Positions 7,708-13,651 of a stretch of 64,000 bases of DNA are shown piece after piece (the stretch's first letter is position 1; every line of letters begins with the position of its first letter). The stretch comes from Caldimonas thermodepolymerans (GTDB taxonomy: Bacteria > Pseudomonadota > Gammaproteobacteria > Burkholderiales > Burkholderiaceae_C), in the NCBI RefSeq assembly GCF_015476235.1, contig NZ_CP064338.1:2728001-2792000 (forward strand), given 5' to 3'. Position numbers and translations under genes: made by a program. Below the pieces are notes generated by a model. That model did no database searches and was not told the DNA's origin. It was given only the letters and a program-made list of their open reading frames with translations.

Positions 7708-8550
7708 TCAGCGCTCTTCGTTGGCGTTGGGGAAGAACAGCTGTTCGCCGTTGATCTTGTACTCGGCGATGGTGGCCTGGCCCTGCGGCGAGACCACCCA
7801 GTCGGCGAAGGCCTGGGCCAGGTCGCGCTTGACGTGCGGGTGCCGGGCCGGGTTCACGACGATCACGCCGTACTGGTTGAACAGGCGCTTGTCGCCCTCG
7901 ACCAGCACGACCAGGTCGCCGCGGTTCTTGAACGACAGCCAGGTACCGCGGTCGGCCAGCACGTAGGCATTGGACGACGAGGCGATGTTGAGCGCCGGGC
8001 CCATGCCGCAGCCGCAGGCCTTGTAGCCCGCCACCTTCCCGGCCGGGTCGTCGACGCCGGCTTCCTTCCAGTAGCGCAGCTCGGCCGAGTGGGTACCGCT
8101 CTTGTCGCCGCGCGAGACGAACGGATGGGACGAGGCGGCCAGCTTGCGGAAGGCCTCCACCACGTCCTTGCCGCGCACGCCGGCCGGGTCGTCCTTCGGG
8201 CCGATGACCACGAAGTCGTTGTACATGACCGGCTGGCGCTTGATGCCGTAGCCCTCGGCGACGAACTTCTCCTCGGCCGCCTTGTCGTGCACGAACATCA
8301 CGTCCGCATCGCCGCGGCGCCCCATGTCCAGCGCCTGCCCGGTGCCGAGCGCGACGACGCGCACGGCGATGCCGGTGGCCTGCTTGAACGCCGGCAGCAG
8401 GTGGGCGAACAGGCCCGACTGTTCGGTGGAGGTGGTCGACGCCATCACGATGTGGCGCTCCTGCGCCCAGGAGGTCGTGCCGGCCGCAGCCAGCACCATG
8501 CCGGCACACGCCAGCAGCGCGCGCCTGCGCAGCCCGGTAATCAATGCCAT
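7708..8550 (-). CDS. tupA: Tungstate-type ABC transporter substrate-binding protein
   Basis: 280 aa periplasmic binding protein with a signal peptide ending near TTSWAQ. The mature N-terminus, IVMASTTSTEQSGLF, matches TupA/WtpA-like proteins, where the Thr/Ser-rich loop binds the oxyanion; TGQALDMGRRGDADV and SRGDKSGTHSAELRYW are further family blocks. An excellent AAGGAG lies upstream of the ATG, which overlaps the stop region of the ATPase gene by ten bases. With tupB and tupC it should import tungstate, possibly also molybdate, for pterin cofactors such as that of the formate dehydrogenase in this window. Tungstate over molybdate is inferred from family similarity only. Confidence 0.82.
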   Translation of the reverse strand: MALITGLRRRALLACAGMVLAAAGTTSWAQERHIVMASTTSTEQSGLFAHLLPAFKQATGIAVRVVALGTGQALDMGRRGDADVMFVHDKAAEEKFVAEGYGIKRQPVMYNDFVVIGPKDDPAGVRGKDVVEAFRKLAASSHPFVSRGDKSGTHSAELRYWKEAGVDDPAGKVAGYKACGCGMGPALNIASSSNAYVLADRGTWLSFKNRGDLVVLVEGDKRLFNQYGVIVVNPARHPHVKRDLAQAFADWVVSPQGQATIAEYKINGEQLFFPNANEER

Positions 8551-9311
8551 GGAAGTTCTCCTTTGAGAAAAAGCTCGGCTTCGCGGGGAAGCGGTCCTTG
8601 GAAGAAGTGGTCGGTCGTGACGTCGCAGAGCATGCGGCCCTGCTCCAGGTAGACCACGCGACGGGCCAGGCGCTTGACCTGGCCGAGGTTGTGCGAACTC
8701 ATCACCACCGTGATGCCGGCCGCGGCGAACTCCTCGATCAGTTCCTCGACCTCGCGCTTGGCGGTCGGGTCCAGGCTCGCGGTGGGTTCGTCGAGCAGCA
8801 GCAGCTGCGGCCGCAGCGCCCAGGCACGTGCCAGCGCGAGGCGCTGCTGCTGGCCGCCGGACAGCACGCGGCCGTTGCGGCGTGCCTCGTCGGCCAGGCC
8901 CACGCGCTTCAAGGCCGCTTCGGCCCGGTCACGCCGTTCGGCACGCGGCACGCCGGCAAGGAACAGCGCCAGCTCGACGTTGGCCCGTGCCGACAGCCGC
9001 AGCATGAACGGGCGCTGGAACACCATGGCCAGGCGCAGGCCGGGCGCCACCTCGCGGCGCCCCTCGCTGAGCGGCACCAGGCCGTGCAGCGCGCGCAGCA
9101 GCGTGCTCTTGCCGCTGCCGTTGGCACCGACCAGCGCGACGCGCTCGCCGCCGCGCACGGCCAGGTCGACCTGCTGCAGCGCCAGCTTGCGGCCGAAGCG
9201 CACGCTCGCCTGGTGCAGCGCAAGCTGCGGCAGCGCCGCCGAGGGCGCCGCCTCTGCGGGCACCGCCGGCGCGCCGAGCCCCTGCGGGGACGGTTTCAAG
9301 GCTGCACTCAT
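8541..9311 (-). CDS. tupC: Tungstate-type ABC transporter ATP-binding protein
   Basis: 256 aa ABC ATPase energising the TupAB importer. Walker A is GANGSGKST, the Q-loop lies in MVFQRPFML, the ABC signature is LSGGQQQRLALARAW, Walker B is LLLLDEPTASLDP, and the H-loop is SSHNLGQ. The ATG at 9311 overlaps the permease stop in an ATGA arrangement, which indicates translational coupling. About 25 residues rich in Pro/Ala precede the domain and look like a flexible extension. There is no C-terminal TOBE domain, in contrast to ModC. Confidence 0.86.
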   Translation of the reverse strand: MSAALKPSPQGLGAPAVPAEAAPSAALPQLALHQASVRFGRKLALQQVDLAVRGGERVALVGANGSGKSTLLRALHGLVPLSEGRREVAPGLRLAMVFQRPFMLRLSARANVELALFLAGVPRAERRDRAEAALKRVGLADEARRNGRVLSGGQQQRLALARAWALRPQLLLLDEPTASLDPTAKREVEELIEEFAAAGITVVMSSHNLGQVKRLARRVVYLEQGRMLCDVTTDHFFQGPLPREAELFLKGELPWH

Positions 9312-10024
9312 GCGTAGGCCTCGTCGGCACGCACGCGCCACTCGCGCAGCAGCGCGATCAGCGCATTGAGCAGGAGCACGATGGACAGCAGCACCACGCC
9401 CAGCGCCAGCGCGAGCGGCAGGTCGCCCTTGCTGGTTTCCAGCGCGATCGCGGTGGTCATGACCCGCGTCACGCCCTCGATGTTGCCGCCGACGATCATC
9501 ACCGCGCCGACCTCGGAAATCGCCCGGCCGAACGCGGCCAGCGCCAGCGTCAGCATGGCCATGCGTTCGTCCCACAGCAGGATCAGCGCGCAGCCCAGCC
9601 GCCCGGCGCCCATCGAGCGCAGCTGCTCGCCGTGGTCGCGCATCGCATCCTCGATGGTCTGGCGCGACAGCGCGGTGACGATGGGCAGCACCAGCACGGT
9701 CTGCGCCACCACCATCGCGGCCGGGGTGAACAGGATGCCCAGCGCGCCGAGCGGGCCGGCGCGCGACAGCAGCAGGTACACCAGCAAGCCGACCACCACC
9801 GACGGCAGGGCCAGCAGGGTGTTGAGCACGACCAGCACGGCGCGCCGGCCGGGAAACTGGTTCACCGCGATCCACGCGCCCAGCACCAGGCCCAGGCCGG
9901 TACCGATGGCGGTCGCGGCGGCGCTGACGCTCAGGGACAGGGAGGCGATCTGCAGCAGTTGCGGGTCCAGCGTGACGAGCAGATGCAACGTGCTGCGCAG
10001 GGCTTCGACGAAAGAGGATGACAT
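9308..10024 (-). CDS. tupB: Tungstate-type ABC transporter permease
   Basis: 238 aa membrane permease, first gene of the tupB-tupC-tupA operon, with five to six transmembrane segments and a binding-protein-dependent transport motif around AFGRAISEVGAVMIVGGNIE, the EAA-like loop that contacts the ATPase. I chose the ATG of MSSSFVEALR at 10024; an upstream in-frame start at 10042 also exists and no strong Shine-Dalgarno separates them. The gene is divergent from the regulator at 10095 across a gap of about 70 bases that contains an imperfect 18-bp palindrome. Confidence 0.84.
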   Translation of the reverse strand: MSSSFVEALRSTLHLLVTLDPQLLQIASLSLSVSAAATAIGTGLGLVLGAWIAVNQFPGRRAVLVVLNTLLALPSVVVGLLVYLLLSRAGPLGALGILFTPAAMVVAQTVLVLPIVTALSRQTIEDAMRDHGEQLRSMGAGRLGCALILLWDERMAMLTLALAAFGRAISEVGAVMIVGGNIEGVTRVMTTAIALETSKGDLPLALALGVVLLSIVLLLNALIALLREWRVRADEAYA

Positions 10025-10050
10025 GGGACGACGCCGCAGCAAGGCAGCCC

Positions 10051-10068
10051 GGCTATCCTAGGCGAGCC
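10051..10068. promoter_or_regulatory. Imperfect 18-bp palindrome between tupB and its regulator
   Basis: GGCT and AGCC arms flank a central CCTAGG, with two mismatched positions on each side of the core. It lies in the short divergent gap between tupB and the HTH/binding-protein regulator, so it is the best candidate operator for oxyanion-dependent control of both genes. The motif is not the classical ModE box. Confidence 0.35.
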
Positions 10069-10094
10069 TTTCACGTCACGCGATATGAACTCGC

Positions 10095-11192
10095 ATGCAT
10101 AGGATTCGCCTCACCTACTCCCTGGGCAACGACAGGACGCCGGACGACGACCTGCATCACCCGTTGCTGCACCTGCTGGAAGCCATCCATCGCAGCGGGT
10201 CGATCTCCGCTGCGGCGCGCGAGGTGAACCTGTCGTACCGCCACGTGTGGGGCGAACTGAAACGCTGGGAGCAGGAGCTGGGCCAGTCGCTGCTGGTGTG
10301 GTCCAAGGGCCAGCGCGCGCAGCTGGCCCCGTTCGGCGAGAAGCTGCTGTGGGCCGAGCGCCGTGCGCGTGCGCGCCTCGCGCCGCAGGTGGAGGCCCTG
10401 CGCAGCGAGCTGGAGCGCGCCTTCGCGGTGGCCTTCGACGCCGAGGCGGGCGTGCTGTCGGTCTATGCCAGCCACGACGCGGCGTTGCCGCGGCTGCGCG
10501 AGATGGCCATCGCGCAGCACAAGCTGCACCTGGAGATCCAGTTCATGGGCAGCGTGGATGCACTCGCCGCGCTCAACGAAGGCCGCTGCGTCGTCGCCGG
10601 GTTCCATGCACTGGTGCAGACCCCGCCGAGCTCGCCCACGGCGCGCGTCTACCGGCCGATGTTCAAGCCCGGCCACCACAAGCTGATCGGCTTCGCGGAA
10701 CGCACCCAGGGGCTGATCCTGCCGGCCGGCAATCCGCTGGGCATCCAGGGACTCGCGGACCTGGCCCGCCCCGGGCTGCGCTTCACGAACCGGCAGCGCG
10801 GCACCGGCACGCGGGTGGTGCTGGAGCAGCTGCTCGCGAGCACCGGGCTGGAACCCTCGGCGATCGCCACCTGGGAGCAGGCCGAGCCGTCGCACGAGGC
10901 GGTGGCCGAGGCGGTGGCCAGCGGCAGCGCCGACGTGGCCTTCGGCATCGAGGCAGCGGCACGCCGGCGCGGGCTGGACTTCATCGAGCTGGCGCGCGAG
11001 CAGTATTTCCTGGTCACGCTGCGCTCGCACCTGGAACAGCCCGAGGTGCTGAAGCTGCGTGCCTTGCTGCGCAGCGCGGCCTGGCAGCAGGTGCTGGCCA
11101 CCCTGCCCGGCTATGCGCCGGCACGCAGCGGCGAGGTGCTGTCGTTGCGCCAGGTGCTGCCGTGGTGGACCTGGCGCAAGCCCAAGCGCTGA
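10095..11192 (+). CDS. ModE/LysR-like HTH regulator fused to a periplasmic-binding-protein domain
   Basis: 365 aa putative oxyanion-responsive repressor. Residues 20-100 form a winged HTH like the N-terminus of ModE (LLEAIHRSGSISAAAREVNL, then SYRHVWGELKRWEQELG). Residues about 115-330 form a PBP-like ligand-binding domain (AGFHALVQTP, ILPAGNPLGIQ, RFTNRQRGTGTRVVLEQLL), resembling the C-terminal domain of MopR/YvgL-type proteins and taking the place of the molybdate-binding TOBE domain of ModE. Divergence from tupBCA strongly suggests that it senses tungstate or molybdate and controls that operon. The ligand is inferred. Confidence 0.8.
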   Translation: MHRIRLTYSLGNDRTPDDDLHHPLLHLLEAIHRSGSISAAAREVNLSYRHVWGELKRWEQELGQSLLVWSKGQRAQLAPFGEKLLWAERRARARLAPQVEALRSELERAFAVAFDAEAGVLSVYASHDAALPRLREMAIAQHKLHLEIQFMGSVDALAALNEGRCVVAGFHALVQTPPSSPTARVYRPMFKPGHHKLIGFAERTQGLILPAGNPLGIQGLADLARPGLRFTNRQRGTGTRVVLEQLLASTGLEPSAIATWEQAEPSHEAVAEAVASGSADVAFGIEAAARRRGLDFIELAREQYFLVTLRSHLEQPEVLKLRALLRSAAWQQVLATLPGYAPARSGEVLSLRQVLPWWTWRKPKR

Positions 11193-11202
11193 ACGGCCCC
11201 GT

Positions 11203-12396
11203 TCACACCGCGCAGCTGCGGAAACCGCAGAACAGGTCGTCGCGCTCGGGCGCGCAGGCGAGGCGCCCCTTGAGGTGCTTCATGCGCGGGCGCGTCGCGA
11301 ACGAGGCCCCGCGCAGCACCCGCAGGCCGCCGGCCGGCGGCGCGCTCTCTGCGGCCTGGCGAGGCCGCTCGCTGCCGGGATAGGGGGCGTAGCGGCTGGC
11401 GGTCCACTCCCACACCTCGCCCCAACGGAAGCCGCGCCCCGCGGCCACGCCGGCCGCCGTTTCCCACTCCAGCTCGGTCGGCAGGCGCCGCCCGGCCCAG
11501 CGGCACCAGGCCTGCGCCTCGTGCCAGCTGACATGCATCACCGGGGCGTTCATCGCCGCGCGCACCATCATGTCGCCGCGCTGCACCAGCACGCCGTGGC
11601 GCACCTGCTCGACGTAGCGCGGCGCACGCCGGCCGGTGGCCTGCAGCCAGGCCCAGCCCTCGGGCGACCACCAGCCGCGCTCGTCGTACCCACCGTCCTC
11701 GATGAACTCGACGTACTGCGCCCACGTGACCGGCTGCGCGTCGATCTCGAACTCCGCCACCGGGCAGTCGTGCGCCCCGCACTCGTTGTCGAACACGAAG
11801 CCGCGGCCGGGCTCGCAGCCCAGCCGCCAGCGGGTCGCGGGCACGTGCACCGCCGGGCGCAGCGCAAAGGGCACCGGCCAGGACAGCTCCGGCATCGGCA
11901 AGCCCAGCGCCTGGGCCATGCGCGCCAGCGCTTCGGCGTGCCGGTCCTCGTGAAACAGCGCGAGACGGAAGAAGTGCAGCCCCGCATCGGTCTCCGGTGC
12001 TCGCGCAAGCAGGTCCAGCGTGGTTTCCAGCGTGTCGACCAGGTACGCGCGGGTGGCTTCGGCATCCGGCAGCGACAGCGTCCACCGCTGCTCGTGCGGC
12101 ACGCGCACCGGGTCGTACAGGCGGTCGGCGCGCGGTTCGATCGACGCCAGCCGCGGCCGCGTGCCGTCGGCCTCCGGACCGCGATGGCGCTCGACGTTGC
12201 GGGCGATCCAGTACTCCTGGAACCAGCCCACGTGGCCCAGTTCCCACAGCGGCGGGTTCAGCTCGGGCGACGGCAGCACCGGCTGCGCGTGCTCGAACGC
12301 GCCGAACCGGTGCAGGGTGCAGTTGCGGCTGTCGATCAGGGCCAGCGACAGCAGGTCGCGGCCGGCACTGCGCATCTCCGGGGAATCGATGTCCAC
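11203..12396 (-). CDS. EgtB/SenA-type sulfoxide- or selenoneine-synthase-like iron enzyme
   Basis: 397 aa two-domain protein of the EgtB superfamily, which joins hercynine to a sulfur or selenium donor using non-haem iron. The N-terminal DinB-like domain carries the three expected iron ligands: His55 in WELGHVGWFQ and His149/His153 in FHEDRHAEAL. The C-terminal FGE-sulfatase domain has HVSWHEAQAWCRWAGRRLPT and ends DLFCGFRSC, matching the usual IF-x-GFR tail. I propose a GTG start at 12396 because a well-spaced GGAG precedes it; an ATG at 12375 is the alternative. It is divergent from selD, and an EgtB homologue beside selD (senC) is the hallmark of selenoneine loci. No egtD or senB lies nearby. 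EgtB and SenA cannot be separated by eye. Confidence 0.78.
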   Translation of the reverse strand: MDIDSPEMRSAGRDLLSLALIDSRNCTLHRFGAFEHAQPVLPSPELNPPLWELGHVGWFQEYWIARNVERHRGPEADGTRPRLASIEPRADRLYDPVRVPHEQRWTLSLPDAEATRAYLVDTLETTLDLLARAPETDAGLHFFRLALFHEDRHAEALARMAQALGLPMPELSWPVPFALRPAVHVPATRWRLGCEPGRGFVFDNECGAHDCPVAEFEIDAQPVTWAQYVEFIEDGGYDERGWWSPEGWAWLQATGRRAPRYVEQVRHGVLVQRGDMMVRAAMNAPVMHVSWHEAQAWCRWAGRRLPTELEWETAAGVAAGRGFRWGEVWEWTASRYAPYPGSERPRQAAESAPPAGGLRVLRGASFATRPRMKHLKGRLACAPERDDLFCGFRSCAV

Positions 12397-12589
12397 CTCA
12401 GCTCCACCCTCGCTCGTGGTCGCTCGCGCGCCAGGCCGTCGCGGCAGCCGGCGCGGCGTCAAGCGCAGGGCATTGTCGCACCCGCGCCGGCACGGCCCGT
12501 GGCAGGGAAAGCCCCGTCCGGCGCAGACAATGTCACGCCCGGCGCCTAAACTTTGATGTTTGCCCGCATCCTTGCCTCCGCACCAGACG

Positions 12590-13651
12590 ATGACTGCCTC
12601 TTCCTCCATTGCCGTTCCGCGCCTGACCTCCCTCTCCCACGGCGGCGGCTGCGGCTGCAAGATCGCGCCCGGCGTGCTGTCGGACATCCTCAAGCACAGC
12701 GGCACCGCCCTGCCGGTGCCCCCGGCCCTGCTGGTCGGGCTGGAGACCTCCGACGACGCCGCGGTCTACCAGCTCAACGACGAGCAGGCGCTGATCGCGA
12801 CCACCGACTTCTTCATGCCCATCGTCGACGATCCGCACGACTTCGGGCGCATCGCCGCCACCAACGCGATCTCCGACGTGTACGCCATGGGCGGCCGGCC
12901 CATCATGGCGCTGGCGCTGGTGGGCATGCCGATCAACGTGCTGCCGCTGGACGTGATCGGCCGCATCCTGGAAGGCGGCCAGCGCGCCTGCGCCGAGGCC
13001 GGCATCCCGGTCGCGGGCGGCCACACGATCGACTCGGTCGAGCCCATCTACGGGCTGGTGGTCATGGGGCTGGTGCACCCCTCGCGCATCAAGCGCAATG
13101 CCGACGCCCGGCCGGGCGACGTGCTGGTGCTCGGCAAGCCGCTCGGCGTGGGCGTGCTCTCTGCCGCGCTGAAGAAGGAGCAGCTCGACGCCGAGGGCTA
13201 CCGCCAGATGGTCGCCAGCACCACGAAGCTGAACACCCCGGGCCCGGACCTGGCCGCCCTGCCGGGCGTGCACGCGCTGACCGACGTGACCGGCTTCGGG
13301 CTGGCCGGCCACGGCCTGGAGCTGGCGCGCGGCGCGAACGTCACGGTACAGGTCGACTGGACACGCGTGCCGCTGCTGCCCGGCGTGCGCGAGCTGGCCG
13401 CGCAGGGCTTCGTCACCGGCGCCTCGGGGCGCAACTGGAACAGCTACGGCGCGCAGGTGCAGCTGCCCGAGGGCTTCGCGGCCGAAGACCGCGCGCTGCT
13501 GACCGACCCGCAGACCAGCGGCGGCCTGCTGGTCTCGTGCGCGCCGGACGCCGTGGACCAGGTGCTGCAGACCTTCCGGCAGCACGGCTTCGAGACCGCG
13601 GCGGTGGTCGGTTCGGTGGCCGAAGGCCCGGCGGGCCTGGTGGTGCGCTGA
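12590..13651 (+). CDS. selD: Selenide, water dikinase (selenophosphate synthetase)
   Basis: 353 aa enzyme making selenophosphate from selenide and ATP. The N-terminal loop HGGGCGCKIAPG holds the catalytic Cys21 (E. coli Cys17 equivalent), followed by Cys23 and Lys24. AIRS-family blocks follow: DDAAVYQLND, TDFFMPIVDDPHDFGRIAA, AGGHTIDSVEPIYG and TDVTGFGLAGHGLE. The ATG at 12590 gives the canonical N-terminus; an upstream TTG at 12560 only adds a Pro-rich leader. The product could feed tRNA 2-selenouridine, selenoprotein synthesis or selenoneine. The EgtB-type gene next to it favours the last, and the formate dehydrogenase here uses Cys instead of Sec. Confidence 0.93.
   Translation: MTASSSIAVPRLTSLSHGGGCGCKIAPGVLSDILKHSGTALPVPPALLVGLETSDDAAVYQLNDEQALIATTDFFMPIVDDPHDFGRIAATNAISDVYAMGGRPIMALALVGMPINVLPLDVIGRILEGGQRACAEAGIPVAGGHTIDSVEPIYGLVVMGLVHPSRIKRNADARPGDVLVLGKPLGVGVLSAALKKEQLDAEGYRQMVASTTKLNTPGPDLAALPGVHALTDVTGFGLAGHGLELARGANVTVQVDWTRVPLLPGVRELAAQGFVTGASGRNWNSYGAQVQLPEGFAAEDRALLTDPQTSGGLLVSCAPDAVDQVLQTFRQHGFETAAVVGSVAEGPAGLVVR

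Follow-up and report, generated by a model that had tools for sequence, protein, structure and literature searches.

The SenA-like protein encoded beside selD in the DNA analysed here, a stretch of 64,000 nucleotides from Caldimonas thermodepolymerans (contig NZ_CP064338.1; hereafter the window), has lost the substrate pocket of SenA, and its genome holds no senB. We think it fairly probable that the gene comes from a selenoneine locus that lost senB and that its product is now a SenA pseudoenzyme, kept by purifying selection for a non-catalytic role. The pathway is described in PMC10891094, and likewise in PMC10903977, as formed by SenC, SenB and SenA, of which SenA is an iron-dependent enzyme that joins hercynine and selenosugars (PMC10891094).

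The senA-selD locus of the window

The senA-like coding sequence begins on the minus strand with a GTG at 12396, ends at 11203 and gives a protein of 397 residues. An open reading frame of 500 residues listed from 12705 overlaps selD, and 12705 is probably not the real start; the GTG, with the ribosome-binding-like AGGGTGGAG at it, is the likely one. The selD gene runs on the plus strand from an ATG at 12590 to 13651 (353 residues) and diverges from the senA-like gene, 193 bp separating their starts, and the regulator gene at 10095-11192 (plus strand), with some 10 bp between its end and the stop codon of senA, is thus convergent with senA. A sequence-only reading of this DNA had described the same arrangement, head-to-head with selD, facing a regulator gene on the other side and with neither senB nor egtD adjacent, and the model searches bear it out (E = 2.3e-134 for the SenA model NF041186 and E = 1.1e-164 for the SelD model); the three iron-ligand histidines that it named, His55, His149 and His153, are likewise present in the 397-residue numbering. 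The features are as follows:

11203..12396, minus strand: SenA-like protein of 397 residues, GTG start (NF041186 448.6 bits, cut-off 420; AlphaFold2 mean pLDDT 93.1; Z 52.8 to SenA 8ryz)
11932..11952, minus strand: iron motif HEDRHAE (H149, H153), kept; Met152, invariant in 63 intact SenAs, is Arg
11323..11391, minus strand: active-site loop, residues 336-358, with RPRQAAESAPPAGG in place of the DPYxDYSxPWFG of intact SenAs; the poorest-modelled part
11257..11265, minus strand: RNF motif (residues 378-380), changed to RLA; Asn379 and Phe380 correspond to two of the three substitutions in an OvsA variant that binds hercynine
12590..13651, plus strand: selD, selenide water dikinase (SenC-equivalent), 353 residues (TIGR00476 438.7 bits, cut-off 125)
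12397..12589, no strand: senA-selD gap, the site of senB in the relatives L048, L132 and L133; holds a short stretch resembling senB nucleotides ~62-125
12471..12481, minus strand: GTGCGACAATG element, a possible -10 region of senA; GACAATG is found in 6/6 members of the immediate subclade
10095..11192, plus strand: regulator with HTH and PBP-like domains, convergent with senA; a syntenic neighbour in a number of relatives

Beyond the senA stop lies an ABC transporter block (7708-11192) with its divergent HTH and PBP-domain regulator. The binding protein and the permease match the tungstate-uptake models TupA and TupB below their cut-offs (242.8 vs 400 and 159.1 vs 320), and this tup-like block adjoins senA in a number of relatives, whether their SenA is intact or altered.

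The protein is SenA-like rather than EgtB, one of the possibilities raised by the earlier reading: it passes the cut-off of the SenA model (448.6 bits over 420) and scores 221.5 bits with the EgtB model TIGR03440, under the cut-off of 360. Its AlphaFold2 model superimposes on SenA 8ryz with an rmsd of 1.8 over 392 residues at 45% identity, the Z of 52.8 comparing with about 40 for EgtB and OvsA structures (EgtB 40.5). A true EgtB (TIGR03440 593 bits) is encoded elsewhere in the genome beside egtD (340.7 bits, cut-off 290.9; C1:1862058-1862951), the pair occupying C1:1860775-1862951. Our SenA tree adds little to this question, since it contains one EgtB, which serves as its root.

The window genome is a single contig of 3.86 Mb. 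In a profile search of the whole of it the best match to the SenB model TIGR04348 reached 57 bits against a cut-off of 300, which confirms that senB is missing and, at the sensitivity of this model, eliminates the possibility, raised from the sequence, that it lies elsewhere in the genome. Matches below the cut-off, and none above it, also occurred in all 14 control genomes. As the genome also encodes SelA and a selenouridine synthase, the conservation of SelD is explained without selenoneine, and selD is most likely kept for selenocysteine and selenouridine synthesis.

Pocket residues in the window protein and in other SenAs

The pocket was mapped with PDB 8ux5, an entry titled OvsA M401Y/Q430N/A431F and, from its title and sequence, a hercynine-binding variant with selenoneine-biosynthetic activity, whose exchanged residues align to Tyr350, Asn379 and Phe380 of SenA. 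These are Glu, Leu and Ala in the window protein, where the DPYxDYSxPWF loop of intact SenAs is also absent, Ser96 is Pro and Met152 is Arg. In the pocket comparison proposed earlier as a check, the iron histidines are kept and the hercynine-site residues and loop of SenA lost. Since the hercynine/selenosugar pocket is gone, the window SenA should make neither selenoneine nor ergothioneine, and because the hercynine site is lost too, the suggestion that it uses a different selenium donor is disfavoured; with all three iron ligands in place, some metal-dependent chemistry would be possible. A frameshift as the cause of the changed loop was rejected, since no reading frame of the window stretch holds a PWF motif and similar losses are found in other genomes.

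The 63 SenAs that have a senB partner, adjacent or unlinked, share 99 columns of at least 95% invariance, of which 19 are kept in fewer than 60% of 22 altered SenAs (N47, E52, S96, H101, W105, L107, M152, H153, A156, M160, F336, Y347, D349, Y350, S351, W354, N379, R385 and D387). The window protein changes 12 of the 99, with 8 of the changes in a 20-column set defined without the window, L049 and L134 (p = 2.2e-4). AlphaFold2 predicts an intact fold both for the window protein, in which the pocket loop is the poorest part, and for L055, which has lost two iron histidines (mean pLDDT 93.6; Z 53.6 to SenA).

A first set of 86 SenAs comprised 48 beside senB, 16 with an unlinked senB, 7 second copies from genomes in which another SenA lies at senB, and 15 from genomes without senB, 9 of them metagenome assemblies, where absence is weaker. 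The motifs are present in 48/48 of the copies beside senB and 15/16 of those with an unlinked senB are intact; all seven second copies are altered, as are 14 of the 15 from senB-less genomes. The exception with an unlinked senB, L060, is altered despite the senB in its genome, and the senA beside that senB is cut to about 45 residues; the senB-less exception is the intact SenA of L087 (a draft genome), whose sequence equals that of L086, from a genome with senB. An iron histidine is lost in 18 of the 22 altered copies, and the full set of three is found in the window, L063, L076 and L077 (3/21 of the altered copies other than the window). At L164 (7961-10058), senB and selD adjoin a senA that ends after about 45 residues, with an altered SenA elsewhere in the genome, and this locus appears to be a senB without a working partner.

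The second set came from a draw of 299 family genomes and held 138 listed SenA matches, from 552 down to 392.2 bits; twelve listed matches of 391.6-383.2 bits and all unlisted ones were left out. Seventy-three of the 138 lie within 6 kb of senB and were read by residue only if they were also in the first set; among the other 65, the window and G290 had already been examined and 63 were fetched. All 26 fetched SenAs of senB-less genomes have lost Ser96 and Tyr347, 18 of them also an iron histidine, and 8 keep all three iron ligands; 23 of the 26 are new, because 9 of the 63 repeat the first set (L169, L170, L177, L184, L185, L201, L215, L225 and L229) and three of these belong to the 26. Asn379 is lost in 21 of the 26 and Tyr350 in 8, and the window is an extreme case for hercynine-site losses. 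The second copies are altered in 17 cases out of 18, a count that includes L228, a basal outlier with 32 core differences (16/17 without it), and the remaining one, L182, keeps the pocket. With an unlinked senB, 16 of 19 SenAs keep ten key residues, the three altered ones belonging to the L060 genome and to G205 and G110, which both also hold an intact copy. Four sequences counted as intact on the ten key residues (L178, L190, L194 and L196) carry changes at 2-3 of the 19 columns, and in two of them, L190 and L194, 13-14 core columns differ as well.

In a tree of 140 distinct sequences, with support that is modest in places (e.g. 0.315 for the window with L049), the altered copies fall into 14 groups, one of them the outlier L228, and require 9 Fitch steps. 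Some replacements recur, by shared ancestry or convergence: Ser96 to Pro, Tyr347 to Trp, and His153 to Arg, Leu, Gln or Cys. L182, which accompanies a senA-senB pair in its genome as a second SenA, has the ten key residues and differs at 21 core columns; it possibly represents another subfamily. No gene specific to the altered copies was seen among the neighbours listed, and the same block of tup-like genes, regulator, selD, folE2 and dxs surrounds intact and altered copies.

The presence of egtD also differs between these groups. It is found in 72/72 genomes where senA adjoins senB, in 16/17 with an unlinked senB, where the miss is a genome 74% complete, and in 21 of the 28 that have a SenA and no senB (first two groups against the senB-less, Fisher p = 1.6e-4); the seven senB-less genomes without egtD are 86-100% complete. 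One genome of the window's genus, G290, rated 100% complete, has an altered SenA, no senB and no egtD. A SenA without senB is thus not dependent on hercynine everywhere, and the window genome itself has egtD.

Loss of senB and selection on the altered copies

L048 (Caldimonas mangrovi) has the order senA, senB, selD, as do L132 and L133 from genomes of the same genus, with the regulator and the tup-like genes on the other side of senA as in the window. Three loci have senA next to selD with no senB between them, namely those of the window, of G290 (L134, from the same genus) and of L049 (Aquabacterium sp. A7-Y), and no SenB match in these three genomes passes the cut-off. Loss of senB from an ancestral senA-senB-selD locus in the window lineage is the best supported account of this gene order. 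A clear senB remnant was not found in the window gap, only a short, weak piece: the senB-like similarity in 12397..12589 is weak to moderate, its score being reached by 8, 0 and 6 of 200 shuffles against senB of L048, L132 and L133, respectively. Similarity at the start of senB does not count by itself, because this start overlaps that of senA, and a search for a remnant in L049, L134 and L065 gave nothing convincing.

The gap also carries the GTGCGACAATG element, whose GACAATG is present in all six subclade members, with or without senB, and whose full 11 letters are present in four of the six; GACAAT is found upstream in 10 of 87 loci and by chance in 1.4% of 220-base stretches. In L048, L132 and L133 the element lies inside the senB coding region, and because the same letters encode HCR of SenB, we suggest a role as senA promoter as an inference only.

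Close pairs of altered copies gave dN/dS values of 0.037-0.155 in 7/7 cases in a first comparison and of 0.029-0.131 in 14/15 in a second, the odd pair being saturated; five pairs are common to both. For intact pairs the values were 0.046-0.170 in 12/13, and the thirteenth pair is identical in protein. Three pairs with a very high dS (L048-L133, window-L049 and L186-L191) were not used, and L209-L213 (dS 3.5) was counted. Outside the pocket, altered pairs differ at 708/5426 positions (13.0%) and intact pairs at 620/4639 (13.4%); in the pocket the figures are 42/284 and 1/247, the latter low partly by construction, because a comparison of these two groups had served to select the 19 columns. 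For the close altered pairs, then, the pocket is lost and the rest is as constrained as in the enzyme.

No close relative of the window species with an altered gene was found for the same comparison, and the rate on the window branch is raised (dN/dS 0.182 vs 0.072 elsewhere, 2dlnL 7.66). A value of 1 is rejected on this branch (2dlnL 13.6), so the window copy would be somewhat relaxed and still constrained. The branch of the intact L048, taken as a control, has no such rise (2dlnL 0.65), and a test on the window, L049, their ancestor and L134 gave 0.111 vs 0.065 (2dlnL 6.64, from a computation with a numerical overflow warning). The window frame is open over its 397 codons, and no internal stop was found in the 143 matches extracted, nor among the listed SenA matches of the family draw. 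The altered SenAs do not appear to be products of simple decay.

At 27 positions a residue is conserved in at least 86% of altered copies and in less than 50% of the other SenA clade, and at 26 of these at least 73% of the intact members of the window's clade have the same residue. Clade-specific residues outlasting the active site would be the expected trace of an older non-catalytic role; common descent and fold constraints can contribute.

Competing readings and relation to known proteins

We give almost no credence to the idea that the window gene is an ordinary EgtB, which had been offered as an alternative: the EgtB fold is indeed common to both, and the model scores, the closer likeness to SenA structures and the separate egtB-egtD pair rule it out. 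It is very improbable that a selenoneine pathway still operates here through a senB located elsewhere or a substitute glycosyltransferase. The occurrence of unlinked senA and senB in some genomes would allow it, but the single-contig genome has no SenB match near the cut-off, and a SenA that is the sole copy in a genome with an unlinked senB keeps its pocket (except L060, whose genome lost the other senA), which the window SenA does not. It seems improbable to us that the protein is an active iron enzyme now coupling new substrates, such as another selenium or sulphur donor and an acceptor that is not hercynine. This reading could draw on the three histidines kept and on the adjoining selD, but the acceptor site has changed at Tyr350, Asn379 and Phe380, as has the loop, which is modelled least well, and His153 is missing as well from L049 and L134, the two altered copies nearest to the window protein.

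The window gene might also be a young pseudogene, its SenA left without a job by the loss of senB and its frame open only for lack of time; this we consider unlikely, less so than the readings above. The absence of senB from the genome, the poorly modelled pocket loop and the raised rate on the window branch, such as relaxed decay would give, are what this reading would lead one to expect. Against it stand the rejection of dN/dS = 1 on that branch, the lack of internal stops among the extracted matches, the strong purifying selection on altered copies elsewhere and the concentration of the window changes in the pocket rather than the core.

Under the pseudoenzyme reading that we favour, an ancestral senA-senB-selD selenoneine locus would have lost senB, and the remaining SenA would have kept its fold and, in the window genome, its iron histidines while losing the hercynine/selenosugar pocket. 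This would place the protein in a class of SenA pseudoenzymes that arose repeatedly within one Burkholderiales SenA clade, where purifying selection would maintain them for a non-catalytic task in binding, scaffolding or regulation, one that probably already accompanied catalysis in that clade. For the wider proposal, namely that one SenA clade had a second, non-catalytic function and dropped catalysis several times in Burkholderiales, after loss of senB or takeover by a second senA-senB, leaving a widespread family under selection whose members the NCBI model calls selenoneine synthase, we put the chances at about even. Nothing on SenA pseudoenzymes was found in the open-access literature searched.

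A SenA call may be read as a sign of selenoneine production. In the family draw, 19 of about 107 genomes with a listed SenA match of at least 420 bits have no senB match, and pocket residues are missing from the SenA of all 19 (17 fetched, plus the window and G290); distribution maps drawn from SenA alone would be too wide. The presence of senB together with a few pocket residues (e.g. Ser96, His153, Tyr347, Trp354 and Asn379) would probably be a better test of selenoneine. Conversely, 110 family-draw genomes have a senB match, and for 22 of them no SenA match of at least 420 bits is listed; these 22 hold either an orphan senB or a SenA just below the cut-off (as G269, 417.4). Should the altered proteins serve a purpose of their own, a second function of SenA would still await discovery, and the repeated parallel losses would be a natural experiment on the passage from enzyme to pseudoenzyme.

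Compared with SenA of Variovorax paradoxus (NF041186; PDB 8k5i, 8k5j and 8ryz), the window protein is the same in sequence model, fold, the three iron histidines and the neighbouring selD, and differs in the lack of senB, the loss of the DPYxDYSxPWF loop and of the YRNF motif, and the changes of Met152 to Arg and Ser96 to Pro. With EgtB (TIGR03440; 4x8b and 6o6l) it has the overall fold in common (Z about 40), but it falls below the EgtB cut-off and its genome has a separate EgtB with egtD. OvsA, the selenoxide synthase of ovoselenol synthesis (8u41 and 8u42; variant 8ux5), has a related fold at 31% identity and supplies the residue map of the hercynine site, where the window protein has neither the M/Q/A of native OvsA nor the Y/N/F of SenA as a set. 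FGE-domain proteins that lack catalytic residues, OCTIN being one, offer a precedent for a non-catalytic, structural FGE-type domain, and PMC5915273 describes a crystal-forming structural protein among them. The FGE domain of OCTIN carries an N-terminal extension of its own, and the available text of PMC5915273, from which SenA is absent, names the DinB-FGE proteins (sulfoxide synthases) as a separate group.
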